Of a DNA stretch of 64,000 bases, positions 1 through 51,530 are shown in pieces; within the stretch, counting starts at the first letter, position 1, and every line of letters starts with the position of its first letter. Source of the DNA: Prevotella sp. GTDB lineage: Bacteria; Bacteroidota; Bacteroidia; Bacteroidales; Bacteroidaceae. Location: assembly GCA_017645645.1 (NCBI GenBank), contig JAGCOB010000028.1, positions 1 through 64,000 of the forward strand, written 5' to 3'. Under the pieces are notes generated by a model. That model made no database searches, was not told the origin of the DNA, and saw only the letters and a program-made list of their open reading frames with translations. Position numbers and translations under genes: made by a program.

Positions 1-146
1 TAATTTGTAATTAGTATGATTGCGTCTTCTTGGTTCGAACTATAGCACATCTTGTAACGCGCTGATATTAAACCATATAGAAAATACTCGAATTTAATAG
101 AATTAAATGGATTTTGCGCGAAGTAGGGCAGTAATCCCGACTGAAG

Positions 147-7696: not shown

Positions 7697-8246
7697 CCAC
7701 TTTGTGGAGTTTGCGTAATGCCTTGTCTCGGATTTGTCGGACGCGCTCGCGTTTGAGTCCAAGACGCTCACCAATCTCTGCCATCGTCTGACGTTCCGTG
7801 TCCACGCCATAGAAAGCCCTGATGACAGCCTGTTCCCGTTCGTTGAGAACAGTGATGGCACGAACTAAATCATCGGAGAGGGCGTTCTGCTCCAGAACCT
7901 GATCGGTCTTGGGCGCATCTTTGTCTTCCAACACGTTAAGCAGCGTGTAGTTATTGTTGGAACCAACAGGCAGACTTTCATCCGTGGAGAGCACGGGCGT
8001 CTCTCCTGTCACACGACGGATGGCATCTTCAATACTCCGACGGATATAAGGAGCAGCAAAGGTGACAAAAGGTTTGCCACGACTGGGGTCGTATTTCTCG
8101 GCAGCCTTGATGATACCAATCGTTCCTTCACTAATCAGGTCGTCAGTACTCAGCAACTCTGACGTATATTGTCGTGCCAGTGTCACCACGTACCCCATAT
8201 TCTTCGTGACCAGTTCGTCACGCTGTTTCTCTTGTTCGTTTGCCAT
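7689..8246 (-). CDS. Short sigma-70 family RNA polymerase sigma factor
   Basis: A 185-residue sigma factor. Region 2 is clear (LISEGTIGIIKAAEKY, then GKPFVTFAAPYIRRSIEDAI) and so is the region 4 helix-turn-helix (MAEIGERLGLKRERVRQIRD). Region 1 and most of region 3 are missing, so it is not the primary RpoD. It probably directs an alternative or stationary-phase programme; no anti-sigma gene is adjacent. The start at MANEQEK follows a perfect promoter with a leader of only a few bases; the upstream Met at 8285 precedes the promoter. Confidence 0.9.
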   Translation of the reverse strand: MANEQEKQRDELVTKNMGYVVTLARQYTSELLSTDDLISEGTIGIIKAAEKYDPSRGKPFVTFAAPYIRRSIEDAIRRVTGETPVLSTDESLPVGSNNNYTLLNVLEDKDAPKTDQVLEQNALSDDLVRAITVLNEREQAVIRAFYGVDTERQTMAEIGERLGLKRERVRQIRDKALRKLHKVAK

Positions 8247-8254
8247 AGTGCCGA

Positions 8255-8286
8255 CAAAGATACGACGAAAAAAAAAGAAATCCAAA
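8255..8286 (-). promoter_or_regulatory. Promoter of the sigma-factor gene
   Basis: Minus strand TTTG (8286-8283), 20-nt spacer, TATCTTTG (8262-8255). The ATG follows only 8 nt after the box, so the transcript has almost no leader. The -33 element lies inside the terminator hairpin of the upstream hsp20 gene. Confidence 0.8.
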
Positions 8287-8304
8287 TTTTTATCTGGATT
8301 TCTT
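8275..8304 (-). terminator. Terminator of the hsp20 gene
   Basis: Stem AAGAAATCCA / TGGATTTCTT with a 10-nt AT-rich loop; read on the minus strand it is followed by a long T run. It sits 22 nt beyond the hsp20 stop. Confidence 0.75.
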
Positions 8305-8326
8305 TTCCTGGGACAGGATGAAATTG

Positions 8327-8749
8327 TTATGAAATTTCAATCATACGCGACACCTTCGTTTCCTCCTTTTTCATCTTCGGCAGTACTACCGTCAGGATGC
8401 CGTTGTCGACCTTTGCAGAGATCTGCTCCTTGTCGACATCCTCCGGCAGTGAGTAGTTCTGCTGATAGTTGGTGTAACTGAACTCACGACGCAGGTAGTG
8501 CTGCTTCTTGTTCTCCTCCTTGTGCTCCATCTTGTTCTCGATGGCAATGCTCAGATTGCCGTCGTCATTGATGTTCACACGGCAGTACTCCTTCTTGATG
8601 CCAGGGGCTGCCACCTCCATGGTATAGGCGTTTTCGTCTTCCTTGACGTTGACTGCTGGTGCGGTAGTGGTGGAACAAGCCATCATATCGTTGTTCATAA
8701 AGTCATCGAACACTGTTGGAAACCAACTGTTTTTGAATACTGGTAACAT
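8327..8749 (-). CDS. Hsp20 / alpha-crystallin small heat-shock protein
   Basis: A 140-residue ATP-independent chaperone that holds unfolding proteins. The alpha-crystallin domain runs from about residue 35: VKEDENAYTMEVAAPGIKKE, NLSIAIENK, REFSYTNYQQNYSLPEDVD, and the conserved GILTVVLPK. An N-terminal MLPVFKNSWFPTVFDDFM is typical of Bacteroidales Hsp20. The start at 8749 is fixed by a full AGGAGG seven bases upstream, which is rare in this window. A TATAAT-like box lies on the same strand at 8840-8835. Both points suggest unusually strong or special expression control. Confidence 0.94.
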   Translation of the reverse strand: MLPVFKNSWFPTVFDDFMNNDMMACSTTTAPAVNVKEDENAYTMEVAAPGIKKEYCRVNINDDGNLSIAIENKMEHKEENKKQHYLRREFSYTNYQQNYSLPEDVDKEQISAKVDNGILTVVLPKMKKEETKVSRMIEIS

Positions 8750-8910
8750 AATCATACCTCCTAATTCTATTTTTAATTGTTTGTAAATGTTTTTTTGTTC
8801 TTGAATACCTCTGCTTGCGCTTCGGCGTTCACCCATTATAGTACAAGTTACGTGCCAGTGCCTATTTTGCTGACAGGTTGACAGAAATAGATGACAATAT
8901 GTCGCATTTC

Positions 8911-8941
8911 TTGGTGTTTTCATCCATTATATTTATCTTTG
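8911..8941 (+). promoter_or_regulatory. Promoter of fhs
   Basis: TTG (8911-8913), 20-nt spacer, TATCTTTG (8934-8941), followed 24 nt later by the ATG of formate-THF ligase. Matches the Bacteroidota consensus exactly. Confidence 0.8.
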
Positions 8942-8965
8942 CAGCCGACTAAAAACGAAAAGAAG

Positions 8966-10645
8966 ATGAAGACAGACATCCAGATTGCCCGTGAGTGCCA
9001 GTTGAAACCGATTGGTGATATCGCCGCTCAGTTAGGGATTACTCCAGAAGAGATAGAACCGTATGGACGCTATATGGCGAAAGTGCCTATCTCGTTAATT
9101 GACGAGAAGCGGGTGAAGCAGAGTCGTCTGATACTGGTGACGGCTATCAGTCCGACAAAAGCAGGTATCGGTAAGACCACCGTCAGTATTGGTCTGACCT
9201 TGGGACTGAACAGAATAGGCAAGAAAGCCGTGGTGGCATTGCGCGAACCCTCGCTGGGACCCTGTTTCGGTATGAAAGGTGGTGCGGCAGGTGGCGGTTA
9301 TGCCCAAGTGTTACCTATGGAGAAGATCAACCTGCACTTTACGGGCGATTTCCATGCTGTGACATCTGCTCATAACACCATCAGTGCTTTGCTCGATAAC
9401 TATCTGTATCAACACCGCAAAGAAGGTTTTTCGTTGCGTGATATCTTCTGGAAGCGAGTACTTGACGTGAACGACCGTGCTTTGCGCAATGTGGTGACCG
9501 GTCTTCGGGGCGATGGTGTAGTCGCAGAGACGGGTTTCGATATTACTCCTGCTTCGGAACTGATGGCTATCCTCTGTCTGGCTACCAGTGAAGAAGACTT
9601 ACAGCGACGTATCGAGAACATCGTGCTGGGTATCACTTCCGATGGCAAGCTCTTCAAAGTGAAAGATCTCGGCGTGGCAGGTGCTATCACCGTGTTGCTG
9701 CGCGATGCCCTCTCACCCAATTTAGTGCAGACGACGGAGAATACGCCTGCCTTCATTCATGGCGGTCCGTTTGCCAATATCGCGCATGGCTGTTCCAGTG
9801 TCTTGGCCACGAAGATGGCGATGACCTATAGCGACTATGTGGTGACGGAGGCTGGTTTCGGTGCTGACTTAGGTGCCGAGAAGTTCTTTGACATCAAGTG
9901 TCGCAAGGCAGGACTGCAGCCCCGTCTGGTAGTGATTGTGGCTACTACACAAGGTCTGAAGATGCATGGTGGTGTCAATCTCGAACATATTAAGGAACCC
10001 AATGCCAAAGGACTGACAGAGGGATTGAAGAACTTGAATCGCCATATCCGTAACATGCAGGGCTTCGGACAGCCTGTCGTCGTGACCTTGAATCGTCATG
10101 ATAGTGATGTAGAAGATGAGATAGATATTGTTCGCAAGAATTGTGAAGACCTTGGGGTAGGGTTCGCTGTCAACGAGGCTTTCCTCAAAGGCGGAGAGGG
10201 TGCAGAAGAACTGGCTCAACTGGTTGTTGACACCATTGAACGCCAACGCCCCCTGCCCATCCGCTTTACCTATAAAGAGGCTGATCAATTAGAAGATAAG
10301 TTGGAAAAGGTATGCAAGGGCATCTATGGGGCTTCGGCAGTGGAATACAGTAAGACTGCCAAGAAGAAGCTGGAGGTTTTGCGTGCTACCTTTACCGACG
10401 AGGACGGTGCCATTGCCCATTATCCTGTCTGCATCGCCAAGACACAGTTCTCCTTTTCAGCAGACTCCACCCGCTATGGCTCGCCCGAAGGCTTTACCAT
10501 CCGTATTCGAGATATCATCCTTAACTGTGGCAGTGAGATGATTGTCGCTATTGCCGGTGATATGCTCCGTATGCCGGGACTGCCTAAGAGTCCGCAGGCA
10601 GAGCGTATCACTATTGAGAATGGTGAAATAGAAGGATTATCGTAA
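8966..10645 (+). CDS. fhs: Formate--tetrahydrofolate ligase
   Basis: Makes 10-formyl-THF from formate, THF and ATP, feeding one-carbon metabolism. The 559-residue length is normal. The ATP-binding loop [16 protein letters not shown] (near residue 65), the [20 protein letters not shown] motif, the TGDFHA.TSAHN motif and the C-terminal [12 protein letters not shown] are present. The start at MKTDIQ follows the promoter; upstream in-frame codons precede the -7 box. Single-gene transcript with folate genes folE and folK elsewhere in the window. Confidence 0.97.
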
Positions 10646-10669
10646 CATATCTGGGAGAAGGAGGTCTAA

Positions 10670-10746
10670 GGTCAAAGGACTAAGGTCAAAGGGGAGACCC
10701 CCTCTGGCTCCCCCTAAGGGGGAGAAGAGACCTTAGTCCTTTGACC
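10670..10746. repeat. Intergenic inverted repeat with an inner CTCCCCC/GGGGGAG hairpin
   Basis: Perfect 18-bp arms (GGTCAAAGGACTAAGGTC and its complement) at 10670-10687 and 10729-10746 enclose a second hairpin CTCCCCC-TAA-GGGGGAG. Very similar modules (GACCCCCTCTG, CTCCCC, GGGGGAG, GGACTAAGGTC) recur at about 21579-21626, so this is a dispersed intergenic repeat. Confidence 0.8.
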
Positions 10747-10772
10747 CTTTTCCTCCCAAAGGAGAGAATCTT

Positions 10773-11345
10773 GTGAAGAGAACTCCTAGTTTACTTATCT
10801 CCTCAAACATGCGAGCATTTACTGCCATACCCCAGATTGTAAACCAGAATGCACAGATGGTTCATCGTATCTTCAATATTGAGCAGCATCAGATTGAGAC
10901 AGACGAAAAGATAGAACTAATACTTGATAAGATTGAAGAAATTGCACCCAAACCACTGCCAGAACAAATCTTCCAAACAGGATGTGTGTGGGATGCATGG
11001 GCGTATGTGTCTGATTTGGTGAGGAGTGCAAAGAAAAGGATAATTTTAATAGATAACTTTGTGGATGATCGCGTATTGTCGTTGTTAGACAAGCGGACAA
11101 AAGAAGTATCTGCAACGATACATAGCCGTTACTACGAGCAGTTCCAGACAGACCTAAAGAAGCATAACGAACAATATCCTGCTATCGATTTTGTGCAGTT
11201 GCCACATAAGAATCATGATCGTTTTCTCATCATCGACGATAAGGTGTATTTCATGGGAGCCAGTCTAAAGGATATGGGTTCTGGTCTTTGTGCTATTACG
11301 AAGATGCAAACGACACCAGATGTTATATTGGAACTATTGAAATAG
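10773..11345 (+). pseudogene. N-terminally truncated ORF6N-type protein with degenerate PLD-like domain
   Basis: A 190-residue product that matches only the C-terminal part of Bacteroidales ORF6N-domain proteins: MRAFTAIPQI, a coiled helix (IEQHQIETDEKIELILDKI), then a phospholipase-D-like fold (SAKKRIILIDNFVDD ... HDRFLIIDDKVYFMGASLKDMG). The N-terminal ORF6N DNA-binding domain that normally precedes it is missing and is replaced by the inverted repeat at 10670-10746. The HKD motif is incomplete (HDRF..IID). The first 12 residues look like read-through of unrelated sequence. Best read as a decaying relic of a mobile-element or defence-type gene; it could still be expressed. Confidence 0.6.
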
Positions 11346-11655
11346 TATGTCAAGGGTCTCTCTCCTGTCTCCTTCTTTAGTTAAATCTTCACCACTTTAA
11401 CACTTTTTAGGGGGGGCTTACATTCGTTAACGTTTTTATTCGTAACTTTGCAGCCATCGGCTGCGAAGACGGGCTGCACCTCAGCAATTCAAGTGAACTT
11501 GATTGCCTTCGGTTTGCACCGTCATTGACGGCGTAACGCCGCGATGCTGCTCACGCTCGGTCATTCAAGCACGCTTGATGCCCCTCGCTTAACCGCAGCA
11601 TTGACGCCAAATAGATGCGAATACTTAATCATTCAAAAATTAAAATACGTATTTT
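11346..11655 (+). promoter_or_regulatory. Long structured leader with promoter of the 1505-residue surface protein
   Basis: A gene-free 310-bp stretch. A -7 box TAACTTTG (11443-11450) is followed at once by the hairpin CAGCC-atc-GGCTG, then by palindromes TCAAGT-GA-ACTTGA, CGTCA-t-TGACG and TCAAGC-AC-GCTTGA. The leader of about 200 nt is GC-richer than its flanks and highly foldable. Part of the same pattern (TCACGCTCGG followed by a hairpin) recurs near 53318-53352. It may be a regulatory leader RNA or a dispersed repeat; I see no coding potential. Confidence 0.55.
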
Positions 11656-14600
11656 ATGAAAAGAACATTTACTAAACATGTATTCATGAGGGCATCAGTG
11701 ATGCTACTCATGACGATGCTCACATCCATTGGGGCGTGGGCAACAGTGCCGCCATTGTCTGGTAGTGGCACAGCAAACGACCCATATGTCATCGATTGTG
11801 ACGAAGATTGGAACACGTTTGCCTACGAGGGCAATGCTGCCATTTATTGGGCAAGCGGTGTCCATGTGAAACTCGGTGCAGACATCGGTACCACGACACC
11901 AGTTACCGCGACGGTGGGTACCAGTACAAACAAGTATCAGGGTATCTTCAACGGTAACGGAAAGGAACTGGACATCGATTTGCATATCGACGAGGATTAT
12001 GCTGCTCCGTTCCGTTATGTGGATGGAGCCACCATTAAGTTACTGCTCGTTTGGGGCAATGTCTACACTAACGGGCAATATGGCGGTGGTCTCATCGGTA
12101 ATGTCTCTGGCAATAATGTTGAGGTCAAATACTGCACGAACTATGTAAACATCAAAAACAGAACAGCAGGTGATCGCTACCACGGCGGTTTTGTCGGTAA
12201 GGTAGAAGACGGCAGCCAAGTTACATTAACAGACTGCAAGTACTCTGGTACTATTATACGTTCCGATGAAGCTGGTTATTTTACTGCGATCCCCAGCAAA
12301 TGCGCTGGTTTTGTAGGCACACGTGGAGATACGGGTGGTGTTACAATCACTAACTGCTTTATGGATGGTACGTTAAATGTGTCTGATGGCGATGTCGCTT
12401 CAGGTAGCCGTATATTCTGTATCTCTGCAAACTCCGCCTATCTAAAAATCACCAACAGTTACTACACAAGGAATTATGGATTAATTGCACAGGGTACTGC
12501 AAAAGGCTCAATGACAAATGCACAACTGACTGCCGCCCTTGGTTCTGCCTGGTATAATGCTGAACCTATCATTACTCCCAAGAACGTTGCCATTGCTACT
12601 GTTACTGGTGTGCAAAGCCTCTATTTTAACAATGGTAGTTTAACGATAGACTTCACCGTTACAGCAGCCGATGGTACTGTACTGAATCATGATACAGATA
12701 TTTACACAACCTATATTGATAATAAGGACGATTCGGAATACTCCTATTGTTCTAGAGCAGGCACACACACTTATACGCTGAAAGTACGTGGTAAAGGTGA
12801 CTATAATGGAACTAACACATCTGTCACTTTCAAAGTCACCGACGGAAAGATGAACAGTAATGTCACCGAATTGTTTGATGGCGTCACCTATGAGGTGGAT
12901 AAGGACGTATCCATCACGGAACGTATCACTGTTAACGGCACCGTTGTTCTGAGTATCCCTGAAGGCAAGACGCTCACCGCCTCCAAGGGTATTGAGCTGT
13001 CGGACGGCAATCAACTCACCATCAACGGACCTGGTACACTCCTCATCAATAATTGCGATGAAAATAAGTCAGGTATTGGTGCTTGGGCTGTCGGTACGCT
13101 TATCATCAATAGCGGAACCATCAATGTAACAGGTGGATCAAATGCCGCAGGTATCGGTGGAGGCAGTAATAGTAGTGCCGACGGTACCATCACCATCAAC
13201 GGTGGTGTTGTCAATGCCACTGGTGGAGACGGTGGAGCAGGCATCGGTGGTGGTCGTCATGGTGATTGTGGAACTATCACCATCAATGGCGGACAGGTAA
13301 CAGCCACTGGTGGAAGTATTGCAGCAGGCATTGGACCACACCGTTCAAATAACAGCGGCACTGTGACACTCGGCTGGACAAACGCTACCGACTTCATCGA
13401 AGTCACTGCTGGTGCCAATTATTCCCATGGAGGTTACTCAACTGGTATTGCAACCCTCGCCTTCGCTACTGGTGACCATGGTAAGTTCATTATCGACGGC
13501 GAAAACATTGCCGCTACCATGACCAACATTCTTGACGGTTGTAAAATAATACCGAAGACCGCTGCGATGGACAACAATATTGCCTATGCTACCATCAGTG
13601 GTGTCAACAGCGACTATCAATATACAGGTACTGCCATTATCGTGAATCCGAGTCTGACCGATGTCAACGGTAACGCTTTGGTGGAAGGAACCCATTACAC
13701 CACCGTGCTGAGGAAAAGCAATAATGACGAGGTCAGCAAGGTAGAAAATGATTACCAAGTGACCGATGCAGACACTTATACCTTCACCTTTACAGGCATG
13801 AGTGACTATGCTGGCACTTCAAAGACGCTCACTTTCAAGATCCTTGCTCTTGCCAAGCCCACCAATCTGAAACAGACAGACTACAGTGAGACCAGTGCTA
13901 CACTCTCTTGGACGAAAAAAGGTTCAGAGACCAAGTGGACGGTGGAATACAGCACCGACAACACCTTCGCTTCTGGCGTGACGAGCGTCAATGTCACTAA
14001 TACGAGCATTGTCCTTGACGGTCTTACCGCCGAGCAGACCTATTACGCTCGTGTAAAGGCTGTTGTCGGCGACGGTGGAAGTGACTGGAGCAATACGGTA
14101 ACATTCTATACTACCGCTAAGTCATGGATTGGATGCGGAGCTCAATATACATTTACAGACCCTTATCTTACTTATACTAATTACAAGTATAGCCTGTCTC
14201 AGCAGATTTATACTGCTGCCGAGATGGGAAGCACGACAAGTCTCGTTGAGAGCCTCGATTTCATGCTGACTGCCTATCCCTGTACACGCACGTTCGATAT
14301 TTATATGGTACATACTGACAAGGCGAGCTTTACAGCCAATAATGACTGGATCTCCTACACGGACGACGACAAGGTGTTCAGTGGCAACGTTACCTTCGGC
14401 GAAAATGTATGGACTACCATTACGTTCGATAAGAAATTCGTCTATAACGGTACGCAGAACGTGGCTCTCATCGTGGTAGATAGGACTGTTTCTGTAAATA
14501 GTGGTAATACAGCCCAATTCCTCAGTTATAAGGAGGATGACGACTATATGTCCATTGTGGCAAAGGACTCTAATCCTATTGATATCACTTCAGCTAACGG

Positions 14601-16173
14601 ATCTCGAGATTCACATAGGAGCCAGATTCGTCTTGTCAAGTCGGATGTCAGCATAGTGTCGCTGGCTGACGATGCCGACAATACGGCGACCCTCAATAAC
14701 AACGACGGAGAGAATAGTATTGTTACACTCAACGGTCGTACTATCTACTGCGACGGTGACTGGAACACGCTGTGTCTGCCGTTCAACATGACGGCTGAGC
14801 AGATTGCTGCCTCGCCGCTGGCAGGCTTGACCATCAAGGAAATGCTCCCGACATCATCCCTTGACAACAATGGTTTGCTGACGCTGAACTTCCAGACTGT
14901 TACGACTATCGAGGCTGGCAAGCCGTATATTGTAAAGTATGCTGGACAAACGGCCGATCTCCTTATCCACGATGCTACTGACTGGAATACCTTTGCCAGC
15001 AATGTAAGCAGTGGCACGACATACGAAGGTCAAATCGTGAAACTTGCTGACGATTTCGACAACAGTACTGCTGTTACGACGATGGTAGGAGATCCCAATA
15101 ACACCAAGTTCAAAGGAACGTTTGACGGCAACGGCAAGACTTTGAATATCGCGTTGACACCTTCAGTAACATATGGTGCCCCCTTCCGCAGCATTGATGG
15201 TGCTACCATCAAGAACCTAAAAGTAGAAGGTACCATCAGTTCATCACAAATTAGGATAGGTGGAATTGTCGCTAATACTCATGGTAACGTCACCATCGAG
15301 AATTGCGAATGCAAAGTTGCCATCTCGACTAGTAGTGATATGTATGGGTCAAGTCAAATTGGTGGCATCGTATATGATGTTGATGATGGTACAGTGACGA
15401 TTAAGAATTGTCTTTTCAGTGGTTCATTGTCTGGAACACCGGGAACATATAATGGAGGTATAGTAAATCATTTTTATAATGATGCTATTGCAAACATCAG
15501 CAATTGCCTGTTTGCTCCGTCAAGCATCGCTACTGCGGATAACAATAGTCAGGTTATCCTAAGGTCCAGTGATGGTTTATTCTCAATCCAGAAGTGTTAC
15601 TATAATAGCGTAGCTGCTGCCGCTAACTATGGAACTTCTAACGGAGGTGAGGCTGCTGCTACGGACAACGACCTACTGCTTGCCGATCTTGGCTCTGGAT
15701 GGGAAATCAGTGGCGGCAATGTCGTGCCGAAGATGAACATGCCTGTTCCTGACATCGTCAATCCTGTATTTACTGGCGTGACCATCAATGCTGCTGCTCC
15801 GACAGAAGTTACCTCTAACGACGGTAATGTAAACTTCTTAGGTCAGTACAACCCGTTCACCATTGACGATAGCAACATCAAGTCTGTCATCCTGCTGGGT
15901 AGCAACAATAAGTTGGGCTATTCTTCAAATCCACGCACGCTGCGTGCCTTCCGTGCCCACTTCTTTATACCCACAACAGCGACGGCTCGTAGTTTCGAAC
16001 TGAACTTCGGCGACGATGATGAAACGACGGGAGTTTTCCAAATTGAAAATGGAGAATTGAAAGTTAAGACTTTGAATAGCGGTTGGTACACTCTGGGTGG
16101 CTTGAAGCTGCAAGGTGAACCGACAGAGAAGGGTGTTTATATCTATAATGGTAAAAAGGTCGTACTGAAGTAA
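11656..16173 (+). CDS. Giant exported surface protein with GLUG-like, Gly-rich beta and fibronectin type III regions
   Basis: 1505 residues with a signal peptide (basic start, hydrophobic core, cleavage after IGAWA). A GLUG-like beta-solenoid region (about 40-220: GTFNGNGK-type and YGGGLIGN-type motifs) is followed by a repetitive segment at about 490-560 with TITING and AGIGGG units. A fibronectin type III domain lies at about 732-820 (KPTNLKQTDYSETSATLSW). A second GLUG-like region lies at about 1105-1290, close to that of the 38.6-kb protein. Both also share a DWNTLCLPF / GWNTFCAPF motif. The C-terminus (TEKGVYIYNGKKVVLK) resembles a surface-sorting tail. Probably an adhesin or glycan-binding protein; the ligand is unknown. 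Confidence 0.8.
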   Translation: MKRTFTKHVFMRASVMLLMTMLTSIGAWATVPPLSGSGTANDPYVIDCDEDWNTFAYEGNAAIYWASGVHVKLGADIGTTTPVTATVGTSTNKYQGIFNGNGKELDIDLHIDEDYAAPFRYVDGATIKLLLVWGNVYTNGQYGGGLIGNVSGNNVEVKYCTNYVNIKNRTAGDRYHGGFVGKVEDGSQVTLTDCKYSGTIIRSDEAGYFTAIPSKCAGFVGTRGDTGGVTITNCFMDGTLNVSDGDVASGSRIFCISANSAYLKITNSYYTRNYGLIAQGTAKGSMTNAQLTAALGSAWYNAEPIITPKNVAIATVTGVQSLYFNNGSLTIDFTVTAADGTVLNHDTDIYTTYIDNKDDSEYSYCSRAGTHTYTLKVRGKGDYNGTNTSVTFKVTDGKMNSNVTELFDGVTYEVDKDVSITERITVNGTVVLSIPEGKTLTASKGIELSDGNQLTINGPGTLLINNCDENKSGIGAWAVGTLIINSGTINVTGGSNAAGIGGGSNSSADGTITINGGVVNATGGDGGAGIGGGRHGDCGTITINGGQVTATGGSIAAGIGPHRSNNSGTVTLGWTNATDFIEVTAGANYSHGGYSTGIATLAFATGDHGKFIIDGENIAATMTNILDGCKIIPKTAAMDNNIAYATISGVNSDYQYTGTAIIVNPSLTDVNGNALVEGTHYTTVLRKSNNDEVSKVENDYQVTDADTYTFTFTGMSDYAGTSKTLTFKILALAKPTNLKQTDYSETSATLSWTKKGSETKWTVEYSTDNTFASGVTSVNVTNTSIVLDGLTAEQTYYARVKAVVGDGGSDWSNTVTFYTTAKSWIGCGAQYTFTDPYLTYTNYKYSLSQQIYTAAEMGSTTSLVESLDFMLTAYPCTRTFDIYMVHTDKASFTANNDWISYTDDDKVFSGNVTFGENVWTTITFDKKFVYNGTQNVALIVVDRTVSVNSGNTAQFLSYKEDDDYMSIVAKDSNPIDITSANGSRDSHRSQIRLVKSDVSIVSLADDADNTATLNNNDGENSIVTLNGRTIYCDGDWNTLCLPFNMTAEQIAASPLAGLTIKEMLPTSSLDNNGLLTLNFQTVTTIEAGKPYIVKYAGQTADLLIHDATDWNTFASNVSSGTTYEGQIVKLADDFDNSTAVTTMVGDPNNTKFKGTFDGNGKTLNIALTPSVTYGAPFRSIDGATIKNLKVEGTISSSQIRIGGIVANTHGNVTIENCECKVAISTSSDMYGSSQIGGIVYDVDDGTVTIKNCLFSGSLSGTPGTYNGGIVNHFYNDAIANISNCLFAPSSIATADNNSQVILRSSDGLFSIQKCYYNSVAAAANYGTSNGGEAAATDNDLLLADLGSGWEISGGNVVPKMNMPVPDIVNPVFTGVTINAAAPTEVTSNDGNVNFLGQYNPFTIDDSNIKSVILLGSNNKLGYSSNPRTLRAFRAHFFIPTTATARSFELNFGDDDETTGVFQIENGELKVKTLNSGWYTLGGLKLQGEPTEKGVYIYNGKKVVLK

Positions 16174-16204: not shown

Positions 16205-16363
16205 ATGATGAAAAAGAAATCATATATTGAACCTATGACACAGGTGTTTGTGCTGCAACAGCAGCACCACCTGCTGGCAGGTAGTAACCCTGCAGCGTCA
16301 AGTGCCTACAGTTCCGACGGTCTCGAATGGTCAGAAACCGGTATCAGCGGCGGCGACCGTTAA
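16205..16363 (+). CDS. Small leader-like peptide, copy 1
   Basis: A 52-residue frame starting ATG ATG AAA AAG AAA, 31 nt after the surface-protein stop. The N-terminus (KKKSYIEPMTQVFVLQQQ, then HHLLAGS) has the same pattern as short genes at 41188 and 51360: YxxP, a V..LQ helix, a hydrophobic LL and a GS. The remainder is Ser/Gly-rich with acidic residues and differs between copies. This leader-plus-variable-core layout recalls secreted or modified peptide precursors, but no maturation enzyme is adjacent. Function unknown; conserved spacing and pairing support it as a real gene. Confidence 0.65.
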   Translation: MMKKKSYIEPMTQVFVLQQQHHLLAGSNPAASSAYSSDGLEWSETGISGGDR

Positions 16364-16412: not shown

Positions 16413-16447
16413 CATCCGCAGGATTCACCTCCTGCGGATGCTTTTTG
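16413..16447. terminator. Terminator after the surface protein and peptide pair
   Basis: Stem CATCCGCAGG / CCTGCGGATG, 8-nt loop, followed by CTTTTTG on the plus strand. It lies between the small peptide gene and the convergent toxin gene. Confidence 0.85.
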
Positions 16448-16470: not shown

Positions 16471-16743
16471 TTATTTGTCGCTATAATGACCGTAGGTGGT
16501 AAGCACATCAACGTGAACCTCCTTCTCAAAGATTCGATACACCAAACGATGTTTCTTTGTAATCTGTCGACTCCAACGATTCTCTGGCAGTCCCTTTAGC
16601 GGTTCAGGATGACCTGTTCCTGTTTTTGGATGTTCTGTTATTTCGTTAAGCAATTTGACGGCTTTCTTAAATGCTGCAGGCTCACTACGCTTCAGTTTGG
16701 TAAGCCCTTCTTTTGCTTCAGGAGAATAGGTGATAGTGTACAT
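16471..16743 (-). CDS. YoeB/Txe-family toxin (mRNA interferase)
   Basis: A 90-residue RelE-superfamily toxin of the YoeB type, expected to cleave mRNA on the ribosome. The signature GHPEPLKGLPENRWSRQITK, then HRLVYRI and a C-terminal VLTTYGHYSDK with the terminal His-Tyr pair are all present. It starts 4 nt after the antitoxin stop, so the two are co-translated. The symbol yoeB is withheld because close Txe relatives are equally possible. Confidence 0.93.
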   Translation of the reverse strand: MYTITYSPEAKEGLTKLKRSEPAAFKKAVKLLNEITEHPKTGTGHPEPLKGLPENRWSRQITKKHRLVYRIFEKEVHVDVLTTYGHYSDK

Positions 16744-16747
16744 GTGA

Positions 16748-16996
16748 TTAAAGAGAGTTAAGCCAATCGTTCATATCGTTGCGATTGGTAAAGGTGATAC
16801 CCTTACCATCAGCAATTTGTTTCTCGGCATCGCTTATACGTGTGAAAAACTCTTCCTTTGTCATCGCCGTAGGGTCAGTATCCTTTTCGGCAATAAGTTT
16901 ACGAAGGTACTTGACAGCCCGCTTCAGCAGGTTCTCATCCTCGGCAATGATGCTCATGTTACGTAGCAGTTCTGCATTTAATTGTACGGAAGTCAT
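16748..16996 (-). CDS. Antitoxin partner of the YoeB-type toxin
   Basis: An 82-residue helical, acidic protein (MTSVQLNAELLRNMSIIAED ... NRNDMNDWLNSL). It does not look like classical YefM, but its size, order in front of the toxin, and shared promoter are those of an antitoxin. The C-terminal segment (ITFTNRNDMNDWL) is the likely toxin-binding part. The start at 16996 is chosen because the longer frame extends upstream of the promoter. Confidence 0.85.
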   Translation of the reverse strand: MTSVQLNAELLRNMSIIAEDENLLKRAVKYLRKLIAEKDTDPTAMTKEEFFTRISDAEKQIADGKGITFTNRNDMNDWLNSL

Positions 16997-17022
16997 AATA
17001 CTATCTTTATTGTTTCTGCCTG

Positions 17023-17054
17023 CGAAGGTACGAAGAAACAAGCAAATAACCAAA
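17023..17054 (-). promoter_or_regulatory. Promoter of the toxin-antitoxin operon
   Basis: Minus strand TTTG (17054-17051), 20-nt spacer, TACCTTCG (17030-17023), 26 nt before the antitoxin ATG. One mismatch to the -7 consensus, which may keep expression moderate. Confidence 0.65.
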
Positions 17055-36394: not shown

Positions 36395-36402
36395 AGTGCC
36401 GA

Positions 36403-36434
36403 CAAAATTACGAAATAACGAAATAATAACCAAA
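36403..36434 (-). promoter_or_regulatory. Promoter of the radical SAM gene
   Basis: Minus strand TTTG (36434-36431), 20-nt spacer, TAATTTTG (36410-36403). Only 8 nt separate the box from the ATG, and the junction sequence TTTGTCGGCACTATG is the same as at the sigma-factor gene. Confidence 0.8.
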
Positions 36435-36499
36435 TATAATTGATTTAAGTTTCGCATTCGCTCAACTTTTTGCCTGGCAGCTTGCAGCCGTCGAGGGTG

Positions 36500-38585: not shown

Positions 38586-41171
38586 ATGAAAAGATCATTC
38601 TATCTTCTCGCCCTCCTGTTCACGATGGTGCAGGGAACATGGGCAGACGACCCGAACGTGTACCTCATCGACAATCTTGCTGACTGGGAGGCGTTCTGCG
38701 CTGACGTCAACAGTGGCACTTCCTTCAGCGGCAAGACGGTGAAGCTGACCAACAACATCAGCGGCATAACGACGATGGCGGGCACGGAAGACCATCCCTT
38801 CGTCGGCACGTTCGACGGTGATAACTATGAGCTCGAGGTCAATATCACTTCTTCCTCTGCTTATGCTGCACCCTTCGCCAGAGTAGGTAACGCAACATTC
38901 CTGGACCTGTATGTGAGGGGTTCCGTAAAGTCCACCATGATGGAAGGTGCCGACCATACAGCCGGTCTCATCGGCAAGGCGGCAGGCGTCGTGACTATTA
39001 CTAATGTGCGCGTGGAGGCCACCATTACTGGACATACCTACTACGGCGGATTCATCGGCCATGGCGGCGGTAGCAGCACCTTGTCCACCCGTATCACGAT
39101 GGCGGGCTGCGTGTTTCAAGGTAAACTGAATGAGAATCAGTCCGGTGCCACACAGCACATCGGCGGATTCATTGGCTGGGGCGACTACATGACCATCGAT
39201 ATGAGCGACTGTATGTTCGACGGCGAAGTCACCATCAACAATGAGGGGGGCTCGGGCCATCACAACTTCCACCCCATTGGCTACTATACCGCGACAGCCA
39301 CCACCACTGCTACGTTGGACAACGTTTACTACAAGAAGGGGCCCTCGGCTCAGAATCCAGAAAACAACGGAACTGCCGTCTCCAACGCTGCCAAGATGGC
39401 GCGCCTCGTCAAGGCGGGCACCGACGTTACCACCTTCGACTTGGGTGGCTCACCCTACGAGTATGTCGTGGCTAACATCATCGGCTATGACAAGGGTATG
39501 AAGTACGACTTGGACTTCTATGCGGGTAATGGCGACAAGGTGGGCCTCATATTGGACCACACACCGGCAGCGGCTGGCAAGCACTTCAAGGACTACACTG
39601 TCAGCGGCGGTGGCACCATCACGGAACAGGGCGAAATGTCGGCTACGCTCAGCATGAGCGACAACGATCAAACCATCAGCGCCGAGTATGACGACAACCC
39701 GGCGAACCACGTCTTTCTTGCCGACGACGCGGAAGCTGGCTGGACCCTCCCGACCAGCGGCTCAGTCAGTATGGGCACACCTGTCACCGTCAACTATTCG
39801 GGCGAGCACAAGGTGAAGAGCGTCACGGCGAGGCCGTACAGGATGGCTGCAGAGGCCACTGCCGAAGACAAGGGCAAGCTGATTTGCTGCCACGGCCACA
39901 TCCATGAATATGGTAAAGATACCCAATGCGACGCCGAGCGCCACGCTATGATTGTCTATGTGAGCGGCACGAAGGGCATGGCCCTCGGAACGACCGACGT
40001 CAACAGCTATTCAATGACTTGGCACGGTGGTGGGACGTACAACAACAATTTGTCCCCATGGTGGTGGTGCGATAACTGGAATAAATTCAGAGCAGTCCCA
40101 GGTGCTCGCTGGAGGGAGACTACCAAGGATGACATTGATGCTTTGATTGGCACTGACGGTGCCAACGGTTATGAAAAGCTTCGTGATAGCTTTGAAAAAG
40201 CCGGCGGCACGAATATGCATAAGGCCAAATACTGGACGAATAATTTTTATATGTTAAACTCTGCGTATGCCTACGACTTCTCCAACGGCCAATGGTGTGA
40301 AGAAGCTTTTAATAATTACAACTATTCCCGTGCCGTCCTCGTTTTCTCATTAGCATCAGGCTCGTCGCCGAGCGTCGACGTCACGATGAATGCTACCAAG
40401 GAAGGCGACACCTACAACTATAGCGGCACGTTCAACATGCCCGCCTATGACGTGGAAGTCAGCACCGGACTGTATTACAAGCTGGGCCAGACGGCCACCA
40501 ACAACGCCTCCACCCGCGGCACCAAGAAAGATGTCTACCTGGAGCGCACCCTTCAGACCGGTGGCTGGAACACCTTCTGCGCCCCGTTCGACATCAATTC
40601 CATCCCCACGGGCTGGACAGTGAAGAAGCTCGTAAGCTCAGCATATGACAGCAATACGAAGGTCCTGACACTCAACTTCGCCAACGAGACGACGAAGATA
40701 GCAGCCGGCACACCCTATCTGGTAAAGGTGGCAAGCACCGTCACAGACCCTGAATTCGCGAACATCACTCAGGTTTATACTGGCGAAGCAGGCTCTGAGG
40801 CCTACACAGCCAATCCAACGGTAACCGACTTCGCAACCTTCACGCCGGTGCTCACACCCGAACTCATGACAGGTGGCGACAAGACAACGCTTTTCGTCGT
40901 TGATGGCAACAAACTGACCTATCCTTCTTCAACCGGCTATATCTATGCCTTCAGAGGCTACTTCCGGTTGACTAATGGTGCCACCTTTGACGCCCGTTCC
41001 TTCGTCATGAACTTCGACGATGAAACGACCAGCCTCCCCCAACCCCTCCAATGGGAGGAGAGCCCAGCTGACGCAATCTATGACCTGCAGGGACGCAAAA
41101 TAGCCAATGGCCAAAAGCTAAAAGCTAAAGGCATCTACATCCAGAACGGACGTAAAGTGATTATGAAGTAA
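38586..41171 (+). CDS. Exported surface protein with GLUG-like domain
   Basis: 861 residues with a signal peptide (MKRSFYLLALLFTMVQGTWA). Residues 25-230 form a GLUG-like beta region (FVGTFDGDNYELEV, GGFIGHGGG, IGGFIGWG) closely related to the C-terminal half of the 1505-residue protein. A GWNTFCAPFDIN motif lies near residue 660. The C-terminus (AIYDLQGRKI ... KAKGIYIQNGRKVIMK) resembles a surface-sorting tail. Probably an adhesin or glycan-binding protein. Followed after 16 nt by a small peptide gene. Confidence 0.8.
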   Translation: MKRSFYLLALLFTMVQGTWADDPNVYLIDNLADWEAFCADVNSGTSFSGKTVKLTNNISGITTMAGTEDHPFVGTFDGDNYELEVNITSSSAYAAPFARVGNATFLDLYVRGSVKSTMMEGADHTAGLIGKAAGVVTITNVRVEATITGHTYYGGFIGHGGGSSTLSTRITMAGCVFQGKLNENQSGATQHIGGFIGWGDYMTIDMSDCMFDGEVTINNEGGSGHHNFHPIGYYTATATTTATLDNVYYKKGPSAQNPENNGTAVSNAAKMARLVKAGTDVTTFDLGGSPYEYVVANIIGYDKGMKYDLDFYAGNGDKVGLILDHTPAAAGKHFKDYTVSGGGTITEQGEMSATLSMSDNDQTISAEYDDNPANHVFLADDAEAGWTLPTSGSVSMGTPVTVNYSGEHKVKSVTARPYRMAAEATAEDKGKLICCHGHIHEYGKDTQCDAERHAMIVYVSGTKGMALGTTDVNSYSMTWHGGGTYNNNLSPWWWCDNWNKFRAVPGARWRETTKDDIDALIGTDGANGYEKLRDSFEKAGGTNMHKAKYWTNNFYMLNSAYAYDFSNGQWCEEAFNNYNYSRAVLVFSLASGSSPSVDVTMNATKEGDTYNYSGTFNMPAYDVEVSTGLYYKLGQTATNNASTRGTKKDVYLERTLQTGGWNTFCAPFDINSIPTGWTVKKLVSSAYDSNTKVLTLNFANETTKIAAGTPYLVKVASTVTDPEFANITQVYTGEAGSEAYTANPTVTDFATFTPVLTPELMTGGDKTTLFVVDGNKLTYPSSTGYIYAFRGYFRLTNGATFDARSFVMNFDDETTSLPQPLQWEESPADAIYDLQGRKIANGQKLKAKGIYIQNGRKVIMK

Positions 41172-41187: not shown

Positions 41188-41391
41188 ATGATGATAAAGC
41201 AAGTAATCGATCTTAATCGCTTGTCCAAGCAAGAATATCAGAAGCCCGAGATAAAGGTGGTTCTGTTGCAGCAACAATCCCATATTCTGGCTGGTTCTCC
41301 GATAACATTGCCGATAAACACCACCGGCCTCGACGAGGATCCCTTAGTCATCTTCGATGAAACCGGCGGAATCCCGGGGAACGCGTGGTAA
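41188..41391 (+). CDS. Small leader-like peptide, copy 2
   Basis: 67 residues. The N-terminal part (KQEYQKPEIKVVLLQQQ then SHILAGS) has the YxxP, V..LQQQ and LAGS pattern of the copies at 16205 and 51360, but with a 15-residue extension in front. The C-terminal part (about 30 residues after GS) is rich in Pro, Thr, Asp and Gly and unlike the other copies. It follows the 861-residue protein by 16 nt and precedes the 1773-residue gene by 29 nt. Function unknown. Confidence 0.7.
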   Translation: MMIKQVIDLNRLSKQEYQKPEIKVVLLQQQSHILAGSPITLPINTTGLDEDPLVIFDETGGIPGNAW

Positions 41392-46742: not shown

Positions 46743-46805
46743 GAAGGAAGATGTAAGATGGAAGAAGTAAGATGTATGATCTATCATTATAATAAGGTGA
46801 ACAAG

Positions 46806-49800
46806 ATGATGAAGTGGGGGCTGCTGCTGTGCCTGCTGGCACTGCTGCCCCAGTCGGCAATGGCTGATGATGTGGAATACTATGGAATGTATGGCATTGG
46901 TATCAGCTATGACCATTACTCGTGGCATGAAAAATACTATGCCGAGGAGGGTCTCGACCGCACCGTGGCAGGCTTTGAGGGCAGCGGCACGCTGGAGTCG
47001 CCCTATCTCATCAGCAGCGTCTGGGACCTGTGCCGACTGGAAGACCTGGTGAACGCTGGCGACTGCTTTACCAATCAATACTTCCGACTGGAAGAGGACC
47101 TCGACCTGTCCGCTTCCTATTACGCCAAGGATCAGTGTCCGCTGTGGTATCCCATTGGCGTTAATAACGAGTTTAAGGGCAACTTCGACGGCAACGGCCA
47201 TACCATCGATTATATGCGCATCCTTATCGGCGACCGCCAGTCGGATAGTCCCATGTATGCCTACGGACTGTTTGGCTATTCGGGAGGTGTCATCAAGAAC
47301 GTGAAGATGACAAATGCTTCTGTCACTTTTGGACAATCAGGAACCTACAACAAGGCACGATACCTCTTTGCGGGACTGCTCTGCGGTTATCTGTACCACT
47401 ATCCCGACGACCAGTGTTATGGAGCTATCTACGGTTGCAATGTGCAAGGCCGCTTCTACGGTTGGCCTCTAAACGCAGAAGATAGTTATAGCAATACCCA
47501 TCTGGGAGGTGTTGTGGGATTTGCTGCCAATCCGGTGAGCATCTACCAGTGTCACGCCAACCTGACAGCCGACGTCTCATGCATTGGCAGCCTTGGTGGA
47601 ATTGTAGGCGTTCTGAAAGCTGACTATACAACGTTCCCTATTGAAAATGACACCGAGAACTCTTTAGCCAAGCCCAGAGAGTCGTATGTCTTCGACTGCA
47701 CGGCACATTTCGAGCCTAACGACGAGGGCAATAAAGCCAATGGTAACGTCGGTGGTATTTGCGGTCAGAACGAGCGTGGCCATATCGTGGCCTGTGCTGC
47801 GACAGGCGATATCATTTCGTATGGTGGTACGCTGGGAGGTATCGTAGGATTTAACTGTAGAACGGTCATCGACTGCGTCAGCATGATGAGGCTCCAAGGC
47901 GCGCCAACCACCACCATGGGAGGAGTCATAGGCAATAACGATACGGAGATGGCAACCAGTTCCTGCAATGTCTTCAACTGTGTCTATAGCGGTCATCTGG
48001 ACGGCTCGGTGAGTCCTAACGCCTACGGACTGGTGGGAGCAGGCAAGGTTATACCCAATGCGCTGTTCCTGGGCACCAGGGAGATGGATAAGGACTGTCC
48101 TTCCAATCACCCCCTGTGGAACAGTAAAGACAATGCCACCGCATACAGCGACGCCAATCTCTACCATGGCGAAGGCGAATACAGTTGTTATAGGGCATTC
48201 TCAAAGATTACCAGCGGGGAGTCCAACGATACAGAATTCTCCACCATGGGCAAATTCCATCGCTGGTGGACGAACAATCGTAACGGCGACGATATCAATA
48301 TATCCATCATCGATGTGTGGCGATTCCGTGAGGGCTTCTATCCCCGTCTGCAGGTGGGCAGTTCGAACATCGTCAACGGCACCACCGAGGCCTTGCTCAA
48401 GTTGCACGACTACGTCATAGAGCGCGCTGCCACCAAGTTTGGCGACGACAAGACGGCGCTGACCACTCCCAAGTTGTTTCCGCAATACGCTTGGCTGGCC
48501 TCTGTGCCCGCCTTCACCCACGACGGCCAGTGGGCTTCCTTCTTCGATACGGCACTGTCGCTGGCACAGCGTAAGATGACCGACAACCAGAGCAACATCT
48601 TTACGGCCAACTACGAGCTGATAGAAACTGCTCCCAGCGTGATGACGGTCACTGGCACGACAGCCACGCCCAAGGCCAATATGGAGGGAACTGTCACCCT
48701 GCGTATCAGCACCCTTGACGGTGTCAGCAAAGAACTGGCAATCAATGTCAACGGCCATCGTAAGTGGGACGGCGTGTTGGCCCCCAACTTCGACGGAGGC
48801 AACGGCTCTGAAGAGCGTCCTTACCTCATCCACGATGCCCGTCAGCTCCTCCAGGCCTTTCAAAACAACAAGGAAAACGAGTATTATCGGCTGGTCAACG
48901 ACATTTGGGTCAACGAGAACCTGCTGACGACAGATGGCAACGTCAGCGCAAACGCTGCGGCATGGGACCACGAGGCGAACAATAACAAGGGCCACTGGAA
49001 AGGCCACCTCGACGGCAACGGCCACCTCATTCGCGGACTCTACACGACCAATGCCTTCGGATTGCTTGAATCTATGGATCAAGGAGCCTCCATCGAGAAT
49101 ACAGGCTTTGTAGACTGTGCGGTGAATCAATCGCCAAATTATAATAATTTTGATAGAGCTTTCCTTACCCCCGTCATGTGGGCAAAGACAGTGCTTCGCA
49201 ACTGTCTCCTCGACGGGTTGTACCTGTACAACGGTTCAGGAGCCTATTGGGGAGGCATCTGCTCCGAACTTCGTGGGTCTGATAACCCTGACGACTTTGG
49301 TCCCACCATCGAAGACTGCGTGGTTGCTGTCTGTATGAAGGGATATAAATACGGCTCGGCAATCTTTAACCGTTTGGGTGCTCACAAAGTTAGTTTAAGG
49401 CGTATCTTGATTCTCAATAACAGTCATTCTACGTCAATGGAAAACAACAATGTGGCCGATAAGTATGATTGCTTTGCCCCTGTTGGTTATTTGAATAAAT
49501 CTTACGACTACTGGGACGCTCATGCCAAGTCGGTAGACGATATGACCAACGGCACGTTCTTTACGGGCGACGGCTTCGAGAAGTGGACGGTGAAGCAGGG
49601 ACGCTTCCCCATGCTGAAGACCTTTGCCGAGACACCCTATGGCAAGCTCATCTCGCTGCCCATCTATACCGATAAGGACAACCGCTTAGACAAGATGAAC
49701 TACCTGCTCGACTTCACGCCGGCCAACGCCACATGGCAGTCCAGCGACAACACTATCTTGGATGTTGACGCTGACATCCGCGTGATAGAGCCGAAGGTCG

Positions 49801-51350
49801 CCGACAACTCTGCCTGGCTGGTGCGCAGCCTCGACGGTGTCAAGGTGCTGACCCCCATCACCACTGATGAAAGCATCATTGCCGGCATCAAGTTTGAAGA
49901 CCCCGAGGCCAAGGAGTTTTGCGTGGCTCACTATGATGACAATGGCGATGGCGAAGTGTCGCTCGCCGAGCTGAAGAATGTCACGCTGGAGGAGTTAGAG
50001 GCCGACATGAACGAAGCCGACGGCGACGCCAGTGACAACGACGGTGAACTGATAGAGCTGTTCCCCGAGTTCCGCTACTTTGCAGGCATCACCGACCTGG
50101 GAACATCGTTCCAGGAGAAGGACAAGCTGAAGACGCTCGAGTTCTCCGGCAAGATAACAGAGCTGAGCGACGACGATTTCAAGGGTAACACCAGCATGAC
50201 GCAGATGACCATCCCCACCAGCATTACCAGCGTATCGGGCAAGGCCTTCTACAACTCAGGACTGGAGAACTATTCGCTGGAAGCCGACCACACCACGTTC
50301 GCTGTGGCTGACGGCTTGCTCTTCAATAAGGACAAAGATCAGCTGCTGAGCTTCCCCAGCGGGCGCAAGAATACCAGCATCACCATTCCTGACAATGTCA
50401 AGACTATTGCCAGCAATGCCGTCTACAAGATGTCTGCACTGGAGCAGGTCTATATCGATGCTCCAGACTACGACTACGAGACGGTGGTAGCGTTGGACGA
50501 CAACGCCTTTACGCCTGCCGACGGCAAGAATATCACCTACTATATCGAGGATGCCACCCAGGACTATGAAGACACTGACGACGACGAAGGCGATGAGCCC
50601 GCAGACGCCCGCTTGCACAGTGCACGTCGTGCGCAAACTACCGACGGCAATGGCAAGGGTCATCTGGTCAGCAAGTATCAGGAGTCCGAATTCTGGGTGG
50701 ACAAGCCGATAAAGCGCTACTTCACACTCGAGGTCAGCGAGAAGGGTAAAGATGCCAACGGCTACTACTGGGCTACCATGTATATCGGCTTCGACACGCA
50801 GTTGCCCGAAGGACTCACAGCCTATATTGTGGATAAGGAGAAGACCAAGGAGAGTGAGTCAACCCTCGTGCTGCGCGAAATCAGCAACAAGGTACGAATG
50901 ATGACCCCTGTAGTCATCCGAGCCACCAAGGCAGGCCCCTACAAACTCTATGCTTCCGAGGAGAGCAAGAGATACCCCCTGTATCCCATGTCGGAGAACC
51001 TGCTCGAGGGTGTCAACCGCAAGGGACTGCAGGTTTACCAGTCCGATTCCAACGATGGCGGCTGTCTTACCCTGGGCAGGAACGCCTCAGGTCAGGTGGG
51101 CTTCTTCATCTATAAGGGCACTGCCAAGATTCCAGCCTTCCGCGCCTACCTCACGGTCAACAAGGTAGGCAATGCTAATTCATTGCTCTTCAGTTTTGCC
51201 GATGACGAGACAACTGGCGTGAACTCGATGTCTGATGTCAAAAGTCAGAAGTCTGATGTGTGGTACGACGTGCAGGGCCATAAACTTGATAGTAAGCCGA
51301 CCACTAAGGGCATCTATATCAATAACGGTCGTAAATATGTAATCAAGTAG
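46806..51350 (+). CDS. Giant exported protein with GLUG motifs, EF-hand-like loops and BspA-type leucine-rich repeats
   Basis: About 1514 residues. A signal peptide (MMKWGLLLCLLALLPQSAMA) fixes the start; the upstream ATG at 46758 would add an unrelated basic stretch. GLUG-like repeats run through roughly residues 130-420 (LFGYSGGVIKNVKM, HLGGVVGFAAN, NVGGICGQN, TLGGIVGFN). Two calcium-loop-like segments (DDNGDGEVSLAE; DGDASDNDGELIE) lie near 1040-1075. BspA-type LRR_5 repeats follow (MTQMTIPTSITSVSGKAF, SITIPDNVKTIASNAV). The tail VWYDVQGHKL ... TKGIYINNGRKYVIK is of the shared sorting type. Probably an adhesin for host or matrix proteins. Confidence 0.82.
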   Translation: MMKWGLLLCLLALLPQSAMADDVEYYGMYGIGISYDHYSWHEKYYAEEGLDRTVAGFEGSGTLESPYLISSVWDLCRLEDLVNAGDCFTNQYFRLEEDLDLSASYYAKDQCPLWYPIGVNNEFKGNFDGNGHTIDYMRILIGDRQSDSPMYAYGLFGYSGGVIKNVKMTNASVTFGQSGTYNKARYLFAGLLCGYLYHYPDDQCYGAIYGCNVQGRFYGWPLNAEDSYSNTHLGGVVGFAANPVSIYQCHANLTADVSCIGSLGGIVGVLKADYTTFPIENDTENSLAKPRESYVFDCTAHFEPNDEGNKANGNVGGICGQNERGHIVACAATGDIISYGGTLGGIVGFNCRTVIDCVSMMRLQGAPTTTMGGVIGNNDTEMATSSCNVFNCVYSGHLDGSVSPNAYGLVGAGKVIPNALFLGTREMDKDCPSNHPLWNSKDNATAYSDANLYHGEGEYSCYRAFSKITSGESNDTEFSTMGKFHRWWTNNRNGDDINISIIDVWRFREGFYPRLQVGSSNIVNGTTEALLKLHDYVIERAATKFGDDKTALTTPKLFPQYAWLASVPAFTHDGQWASFFDTALSLAQRKMTDNQSNIFTANYELIETAPSVMTVTGTTATPKANMEGTVTLRISTLDGVSKELAINVNGHRKWDGVLAPNFDGGNGSEERPYLIHDARQLLQAFQNNKENEYYRLVNDIWVNENLLTTDGNVSANAAAWDHEANNNKGHWKGHLDGNGHLIRGLYTTNAFGLLESMDQGASIENTGFVDCAVNQSPNYNNFDRAFLTPVMWAKTVLRNCLLDGLYLYNGSGAYWGGICSELRGSDNPDDFGPTIEDCVVAVCMKGYKYGSAIFNRLGAHKVSLRRILILNNSHSTSMENNNVADKYDCFAPVGYLNKSYDYWDAHAKSVDDMTNGTFFTGDGFEKWTVKQGRFPMLKTFAETPYGKLISLPIYTDKDNRLDKMNYLLDFTPANATWQSSDNTILDVDADIRVIEPKVADNSAWLVRSLDGVKVLTPITTDESIIAGIKFEDPEAKEFCVAHYDDNGDGEVSLAELKNVTLEELEADMNEADGDASDNDGELIELFPEFRYFAGITDLGTSFQEKDKLKTLEFSGKITELSDDDFKGNTSMTQMTIPTSITSVSGKAFYNSGLENYSLEADHTTFAVADGLLFNKDKDQLLSFPSGRKNTSITIPDNVKTIASNAVYKMSALEQVYIDAPDYDYETVVALDDNAFTPADGKNITYYIEDATQDYEDTDDDEGDEPADARLHSARRAQTTDGNGKGHLVSKYQESEFWVDKPIKRYFTLEVSEKGKDANGYYWATMYIGFDTQLPEGLTAYIVDKEKTKESESTLVLREISNKVRMMTPVVIRATKAGPYKLYASEESKRYPLYPMSENLLEGVNRKGLQVYQSDSNDGGCLTLGRNASGQVGFFIYKGTAKIPAFRAYLTVNKVGNANSLLFSFADDETTGVNSMSDVKSQKSDVWYDVQGHKLDSKPTTKGIYINNGRKYVIK

Positions 51351-51359: not shown

Positions 51360-51530
51360 ATGATGAAAAAGAAATATTATATAGCACCGACTATCAAAGT
51401 ATTCACTCTTCAGACAGCTCGAATACTGATGGTCTCTGGTGATGGCTTTTCATTGCCGTGGTCAGGTAATCAGCCTGGCACCGCTGGTCCTGGTGAGATA
51501 GATGATTTTTCCACCTTCGATTCGTTATAA
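51360..51530 (+). CDS. Small leader-like peptide, copy 3
   Basis: 56 residues, starting ATG ATG AAA AAG AAA exactly as copy 1. KKKYYIAPTIKVFTLQTA, then RILMVSGD matches the YxxP and V..LQ pattern; the GS is changed to SGD. The rest (Gly, Pro, Ser and a terminal acidic IDDFSTFDSL) is unique. It begins 10 nt after the stop of the 1530-frame protein. Function unknown. Confidence 0.65.
   Translation: MMKKKYYIAPTIKVFTLQTARILMVSGDGFSLPWSGNQPGTAGPGEIDDFSTFDSL

Follow-up and report, generated by a model that had tools for sequence, protein, structure and literature searches.

Three short open reading frames (ORFs) of the window, by which we mean the whole 64,000-nucleotide stretch of DNA analysed here, raise the question of what their small products are and which enzymes act on them. 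From the sequence alone they had been read as carrying a conserved leader and as likely precursors of a modified, exported peptide, a proposal that the sequence supports and in which the processing is deduced. We favour, with a probability of about 0.7, the reading that they are scattered precursors of a Bacteroidota variant of the LPP-type RiPPs. The linear polyphosphorylated peptides (LPP), described in May 2026, were presented as a family of Bacillota without an assigned role, and are stated to be 'restricted to the Bacillota' in excerpts of PMC13381572; the stem 'bacteroid' is absent from the main text of that article. Among the papers listed in an open-access literature search, none dealt with LPP-like systems in Bacteroidota.

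A common leader in three short genes

The three ORFs lie where they had been placed, all on the plus strand:

16205..16363, plus strand: peptide 1, 52 aa, second ATG at 16208, leader-profile match 39.7 bits
16208-16276, plus strand: predicted leader of peptide 1, Y of YxxP at 16223
From 16277, plus strand: predicted core of peptide 1, A1-G2-S3, Ser codon 16283-16285
41188..41391, plus strand: peptide 2, 67 aa including an N-terminal extension, profile match 40.4 bits
41236, plus strand: Y of YxxP in peptide 2; predicted core from 41290 (A1-G2-S3), Ser codon 41296-41298
51360..51530, plus strand: peptide 3, 56 aa, profile match 22.9 bits
51378, plus strand: Y of YxxP in peptide 3; inferred site ILMVSGD, Ser codon 51435-51437

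The common leader pattern ascribed to them was recovered independently. To avoid circularity, a profile was trained on 68 distinct leaders, all taken from related genomes and none from the window's own; scored against every small ORF of the window (535 of 30-140 aa), it picked exactly these three; the fourth-ranked ORF reached 4.1 bits, and the top score in 40 dinucleotide shuffles of the window was 9.8 bits. Membership of peptide 3, whose leader is one residue shorter, is weaker than that of the other two but clear. The N-terminal extension ahead of the family part of the 41188 ORF has a similar-looking counterpart, compared by eye, in an own-genome copy on contig C11 (L191), which makes its ATG start plausible. 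None of the three peptides had a significant match in Pfam, NCBIfam or PADLOC, and against solved structure chains the leader profile gave nothing beyond a single chance-level match (E=2.2).

The sequence-only reading had counted a family of three. All three are members, but the own genome, which is 64% complete, holds at least 12 matches. Of 40 genomes searched with a leader profile, 19 gave matches, 84 in total, and every match was extracted for analysis; up to 13 leader matches were found in one genome. Within the bacterial family the leader was detected at E<=0.001 in 85 of 151 genomes and in 18 of 30 genera, so that the frames are conserved in relatives at the protein level. Substitution patterns also speak for translation, with dN below dS in 12 of 13 similar pairs, several of which share one sequence; the lone exception is the G022 C21 pair. 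A context-blind scan of genome contigs with the pattern MKKxYI...LLAGS gave 98 matches in 95 stretches. Among the 80 stretches with titles, 77 bear the name of Prevotella, Prevotellaceae, Bacteroidaceae, Bacteroidales or close genera, and the named genomes with the pattern are chiefly those of Prevotella and its kin, with many of rumen origin. Two stretches labelled as Bacillota/Clostridia MAGs (L247, L297) are without the tail neighbour described below, and another (L270) is labelled 'uncultured bacterium'. In genome G018 (C324 and C206; L088, L089) several family peptides lie within a few kb, some without an upstream tail gene.

Over 80 leaders the commonest residues read M-K-K-x-Y-I-x-P-x-[M/I]-x-V-V-x-L-x(5)-L-L-A-G-S. 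YxxP is present in all 84 extracted peptides, which is partly selection, and Y+5 is M, I, L, V, C, F or A in 69 of 83 leaders. An LLxxS-like site ([LIMV][LIMVACFT]xxS) occurs in 76 of the 83 distinct leaders; a Ser is exactly at Y+20 in 56 of the 83 and at Y+19..21 in 79. This fixed Ser is more telling than YxxP, which the search profile favours. Among the 80 leaders, S is conserved at Y+20 in 54, G at Y+19 in 44 and A at Y+18 in 38, and in LLAES, LLANS and LLQAS leaders the Ser is kept with A or G altered. Because the Ser is more conserved than its neighbours, the small residues fit better as the A1-G2-S3 of a core, with Ser as the putative kinase site. The cores have a median net charge of -6; Cys occurs in 2 of 80 and Trp in 54 of 80. 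In excerpts of PMC13381572, LppB binds YxxP, LppS removes the leader before A1-Q2-S3 and the core Ser3 is polyphosphorylated, and it is by analogy with this scheme that the presumed leader/core borders of peptides 1 and 2 were placed. For a lasso system, excerpts of PMC10368454 describe a YxxPxL motif and phosphorylation of Ser3, the penultimate residue of the leader being hydrophobic; by that rule the window family would read ...L(-2)-L(-1) followed by A1-G2-S3.

Pairing with genes for large surface proteins

In terms of context the strongest feature, absent from the sequence-only reading, is that each window peptide starts 9-31 bp after the gene of a large, secreted-looking protein:

11656..16173, plus strand: surface protein 5' of peptide 1, 1505 aa, Fn3 and beta-helix matches, tail 16081-16170
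38586..41171, plus strand: surface protein 5' of peptide 2, 861 aa, GLUG match below cut-off, tail 41073-41168
46758..51350, plus strand: surface protein 5' of peptide 3, 1530 aa, BspA-type leucine-rich repeats, tail 51258-51347
16413..16440, plus strand: terminator-like hairpin and T run behind peptide 1

All three proteins have, by eye, a signal-peptide-like N-terminus, and they share a C-terminal tail like YDLxGRKxxxxxxKGIYIxNGKKVVxK. The tails occupy the same C-terminal position as the T9SS type A sorting domain (TIGR04183 / PF18962), whose profiles match them weakly at E<=1 (TIGR04183 in 2 of 31, best 1.6e-4; PF18962 in 1 of 31, 1.1e-3). SprA, a marker of type IX secretion, is found in 14 of 15 same-genus genomes. 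The terminator scan covered the peptide 1 unit, where an 801-base region contains three terminator-like sites against a shuffle mean of 0.6; the hairpin at 16413..16440 would close a two-gene unit of surface protein and peptide 1. Behind peptide 1, on the opposite strand (16471-17053, minus), lies a toxin-antitoxin-like gene pair that looks YoeB-like by eye. A single 644-aa frame of the window, at 2027-3961 (minus), joins triosephosphate isomerase to a MauE-like membrane domain.

The same arrangement recurs through the family. In the context-blind scan, whose pattern may favour the paired subtype, a tail gene lies 5' of 82 of the 94 assessable peptide genes, compared with 27 of 470 control genes (at least 100 aa, same DNA) that have a tail gene within 250 bp upstream. 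The gap between tail gene and peptide has a median of 20 bp and falls within -10..60 bp in 64 of the 82; at L256 one tail gene is common to two peptides, and L272, from Segatella baroniae B14, is among the loci with a pair. With a loose pattern in the first 40 genomes, a tail-like neighbour was found for 57 of 84 peptides; for 7 the ORF ending nearby on the upstream side was a different one, and for 20 the stretch held none longer than 150 codons that ended there. Pairing with a tail protein is not universal: in genome G003 it is seen for none of five peptides. In the own genome a peptide follows 12 of the 28 tail genes. Each window precursor is probably co-transcribed with a large exported protein bearing the GIYIxNGKKVV tail.

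The cores had been called unrelated, and overall they do diverge widely, but within one surface-protein operon family they may surpass the surface protein itself in conservation. Mean core identity is 0.43 in 57 pairs with related surface proteins versus 0.28 in 2641 unrelated pairs. At L236 and L280 the cores are 94% identical and the surface proteins 41%, and among L250, L253, L293 and L295 the corresponding values are 80-94% and 53-65%. This tracking of surface-protein family, together with the frequency of pairing and the wide presence of SprA, would also suit small partners or chaperones of the upstream protein, acting for example in type IX secretion or folding and never meeting PqqD, HprK or the peptidase. 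We consider this the strongest of the alternatives and nevertheless unlikely, since it leaves the YxxP leader, the fixed Ser, and the enzyme clusters and peptidase co-occurrence described below without explanation.

Candidate enzymes away from the precursors

As the sequence-only reading had noted, no C39 gene adjoins the three ORFs, and the radical SAM gene at 35.6 kb, which we confirm, adjoins none of the peptides; at 35630-37776 (minus) it adjoins a HipA-like kinase gene. The machinery for the window peptides is likely encoded elsewhere in the genome and not adjacent to them. PqqD (PF05402) is present in 14 of 15 same-genus genomes, the own genome included, and in 136 of 151 genomes of the bacterial family, and in most fetched PqqD loci genes for a kinase resembling HprK and for a small peptidase (GxSM, HR and GDG motifs) lie nearby. 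In the own genome, contig C12 carries HprK, peptidase, PqqD and ABC exporter genes contiguously, with no NTP_transf_5 match in the fetched C12 stretch. The window peptides lie on a different contig from either PqqD gene of that genome, and we infer that one cassette acts in trans on a dozen precursors.

Among distinct sequences from the fetched loci, the peptidase Ser, His and Asp are each found in 48 of 48 and the Lys, Ser and Thr of the kinase GKST motif each in 56 of 56. The PqqD Asn and Asp, equated with N33 and D70 of LppB by spacing only, each occur in 49 of 52. The best NCBIfam match of the own-genome peptidase is the archaeal-type TIGR02228 (5.3e-5, below cut-off); that of the L172 peptidase is another protease model, and the L061 peptidase has none. 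Pfam Peptidase_S24 passes for the L056 and L172 peptidases and not for L061; no signal-peptidase model of NCBIfam, and no HprK model, reaches its cut-off. A sigma-70 (RpoD-like) gene adjoins the HprK-like gene in 10 of the 18 loci L056-L073, and this neighbourhood (L061, L063-L070, L073) is a recurrent chromosomal position.

Some relatives have family peptides beside the enzymes. Loci L058 (genome G013) and L172 (G150) run peptide, NTP5, HprK, peptidase, PqqD and ABC on a single strand. Locus L171 (G088) runs tail protein, peptide, NTP5, peptidase and PqqD; no HprK or ABC match was found there, and its peptidase frame contains two stops (that of G228 contains one). At L173 and L174 the peptide stands beside peptidase, HprK, PqqD and ABC genes on the opposite strand, and the two peptides are identical, so they are not independent. 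Loci L171-L174 were picked, among the matches listed, for a peptide near PqqD; of the 15 large PqqD regions not so picked (L176-L190), 12 are without a leader match of at least 10 bits and the remaining three have weak ones (10.3-19.5 bits). At L058, L171 and L173 the cassette-side peptide itself follows a tail protein, which ties the paired precursors to the enzymes. Weak leader matches of a second type (YxxP ... ExGFxxAS-like) were seen at L184, L186 and L187, in regions with NTP_transf_5 and PqqD, the one at L184 near ORFs that look by eye like glycosyltransferases.

A further cluster of the own genome (L057, C7:112000-130000, at 7659-11672) consists of consecutive genes for radical SAM/SPASM, a Cys-containing YxxP peptide, PqqD, an S24-like peptidase and an HprK-like protein. 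Its in-cluster peptide is assigned by the YxxP motif. Phosphoglycerate mutase ORFs flank the series, one of them full-length and the other shorter, and it was perhaps inserted with duplication; it is possibly a radical-SAM variant of the same pathway.

Peptide and peptidase tend to occur together. In tests that ignore relatedness, and in tables that assume that repeated genome draws returned the same genomes, the peptidase was found in 80 of 85 peptide-positive family genomes, the other 5 being without a match, versus 40 of 66 peptide-negative ones (80/5/40/26, n=151, Fisher 3.8e-7). In a draw of 197 genomes from the order, own genome left out, the figures were 2 of 3 with the peptide versus 9 of 194 without (2/1/9/185, p=0.008). 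PqqD presence alone was uninformative as a co-occurrence test (p=0.054), because PqqD is nearly universal in the family.

The enzyme counts also bear on the remaining alternatives. The small residues had been likened to a double-glycine-like site, and the layout of leader, small residues and core does fit double-glycine precursors cut and exported by C39 peptidase transporters, which are reported with GG precursors in other Bacteroidales RiPP clusters in excerpts of PMC10352776. That likeness finds no support: C39 (PF03412) is found in 4 of 15 same-genus genomes and missing from 11, the own genome (64% complete) among them, unlike PqqD in 14 of the same 15; the L056 and L058 exporters have no C39 domain by Pfam; and the conserved feature is Ser, not G-G. 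Such an origin is very improbable. Lasso peptide precursors are a highly improbable reading as well, despite leaders that by eye resemble the lasso leaders in excerpts of PMC7533575, the YxxPxL recognition described in those of PMC10368454, and the matches of the PqqD profile to the lasso recognition proteins TfuB1 (6e-10) and TbiB1 (7.9e-7): the lasso B2 peptidase (PF13471, Transglut_core3) occurs in 1 of 15 same-genus genomes, there below cut-off, and no synthetase-like ORF was noticed in the cassette ORF lists, judged by eye only. Least probable of all are untranslated or regulatory ORFs at the 3' end of a surface-protein operon, which the short length, the terminal position and the terminator-like site behind peptide 1 would suit but against which the protein-level conservation and substitution pattern speak.

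Proposed pathway and comparison with known systems

In the LPP-type reading, motif, Ser, pairing, enzyme set and relatives' clusters come from sequence, and binding, cleavage and phosphorylation are drawn by analogy. For the window peptides, cutting and phosphorylation are probably the work of enzymes whose genes lie elsewhere in the genome. A PqqD-type recognition protein would bind the leader through YxxPx(hydrophobic) and present the peptide to the HprK-like kinase, which would phosphorylate the conserved Ser (core Ser3), and to the SipW-like Ser/His/Asp peptidase, which would cleave in front of A-G-S and so remove the leader. The pathway would be completed by an ABC exporter, joined in some genomes by an NTP_transf_5 enzyme. 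Since each window precursor is probably co-transcribed with an exported tail protein, the mature acidic peptide probably acts together with this partner outside the cell, although what the pairing does is a matter of conjecture. It is a tentative and rather doubtful extension that one cassette serves in trans a dozen two-gene units, the phosphorylated acidic peptide working on or with its partner at the surface. If true, surface proteins would be tagged with peptides by a trans-acting system, and LPP-type peptides would have their first indicated role; the pairing is in any case a concrete hint at function. Because the precursors are scattered, cluster-based RiPP mining would miss most of them.

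Several known systems are similar in part. The models TIGR04249 and TIGR04352 presumably represent the SynChlorMet (Scm) cassette and the HPr-rel-A system, in which, as here, an HprK-like protein adjoins a PqqD-like one; in the C7 cluster of the own genome a radical SAM/SPASM gene comes in addition. Every match is below the curated cut-offs. The phosphorylated lasso peptides (paeninodin, Bsf) share the PqqD-type recognition protein, the NTP transferase and the YxxPxL-type motif, according to excerpts of PMC10368454, PMC13381572 and PMC7533575. In Bsf an HPr kinase phosphorylates Ser3 and the penultimate leader residue is hydrophobic (excerpts of PMC10368454, PMC13381572). The Bacteroidota cassettes have a signal-peptidase-like enzyme instead, and the B2 peptidase is nearly absent.

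Closest are the LPP systems themselves, whose components are named LppA, LppK, LppB, LppS, LppD and LppN in the excerpts of PMC13381572. By comparison with these excerpts, the Bacteroidota family has the same five enzyme types, the YxxP leader with variable C-termini, the Ser at predicted core position 3 and a signal-peptidase-like enzyme with Ser/His/Asp. The HprK-like kinase, NTP transferase and MsbA-like exporter occur all together in L058 and L172, and the PqqD-type protein is discrete and has the Asn and Asp that by spacing would be its contacts. A precursor inside the cluster, as in LPP, is seen in L058, L171 and L172 and not for the three window peptides. The leaders differ: the LPP consensus in the excerpts is YxxPxVLxHQxIxFETxxS, with which Bacteroidota leaders share only YxxP and the Ser, and the LPP junction is FET before xxS, whereas the Bacteroidota leader would end in LL and the core start with AGS. 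LPP clusters have one to three precursors each and often lie by capsule loci in that account, unlike the Bacteroidota precursors, most of which were found apart from the enzymes, often with a surface protein as partner. The LPP enzyme set with YxxP precursors is now seen across a family of Bacteroidota, beyond the Bacillota, and what is new here is the phylum, the scattering of precursors away from their enzymes and the pairing with surface proteins.
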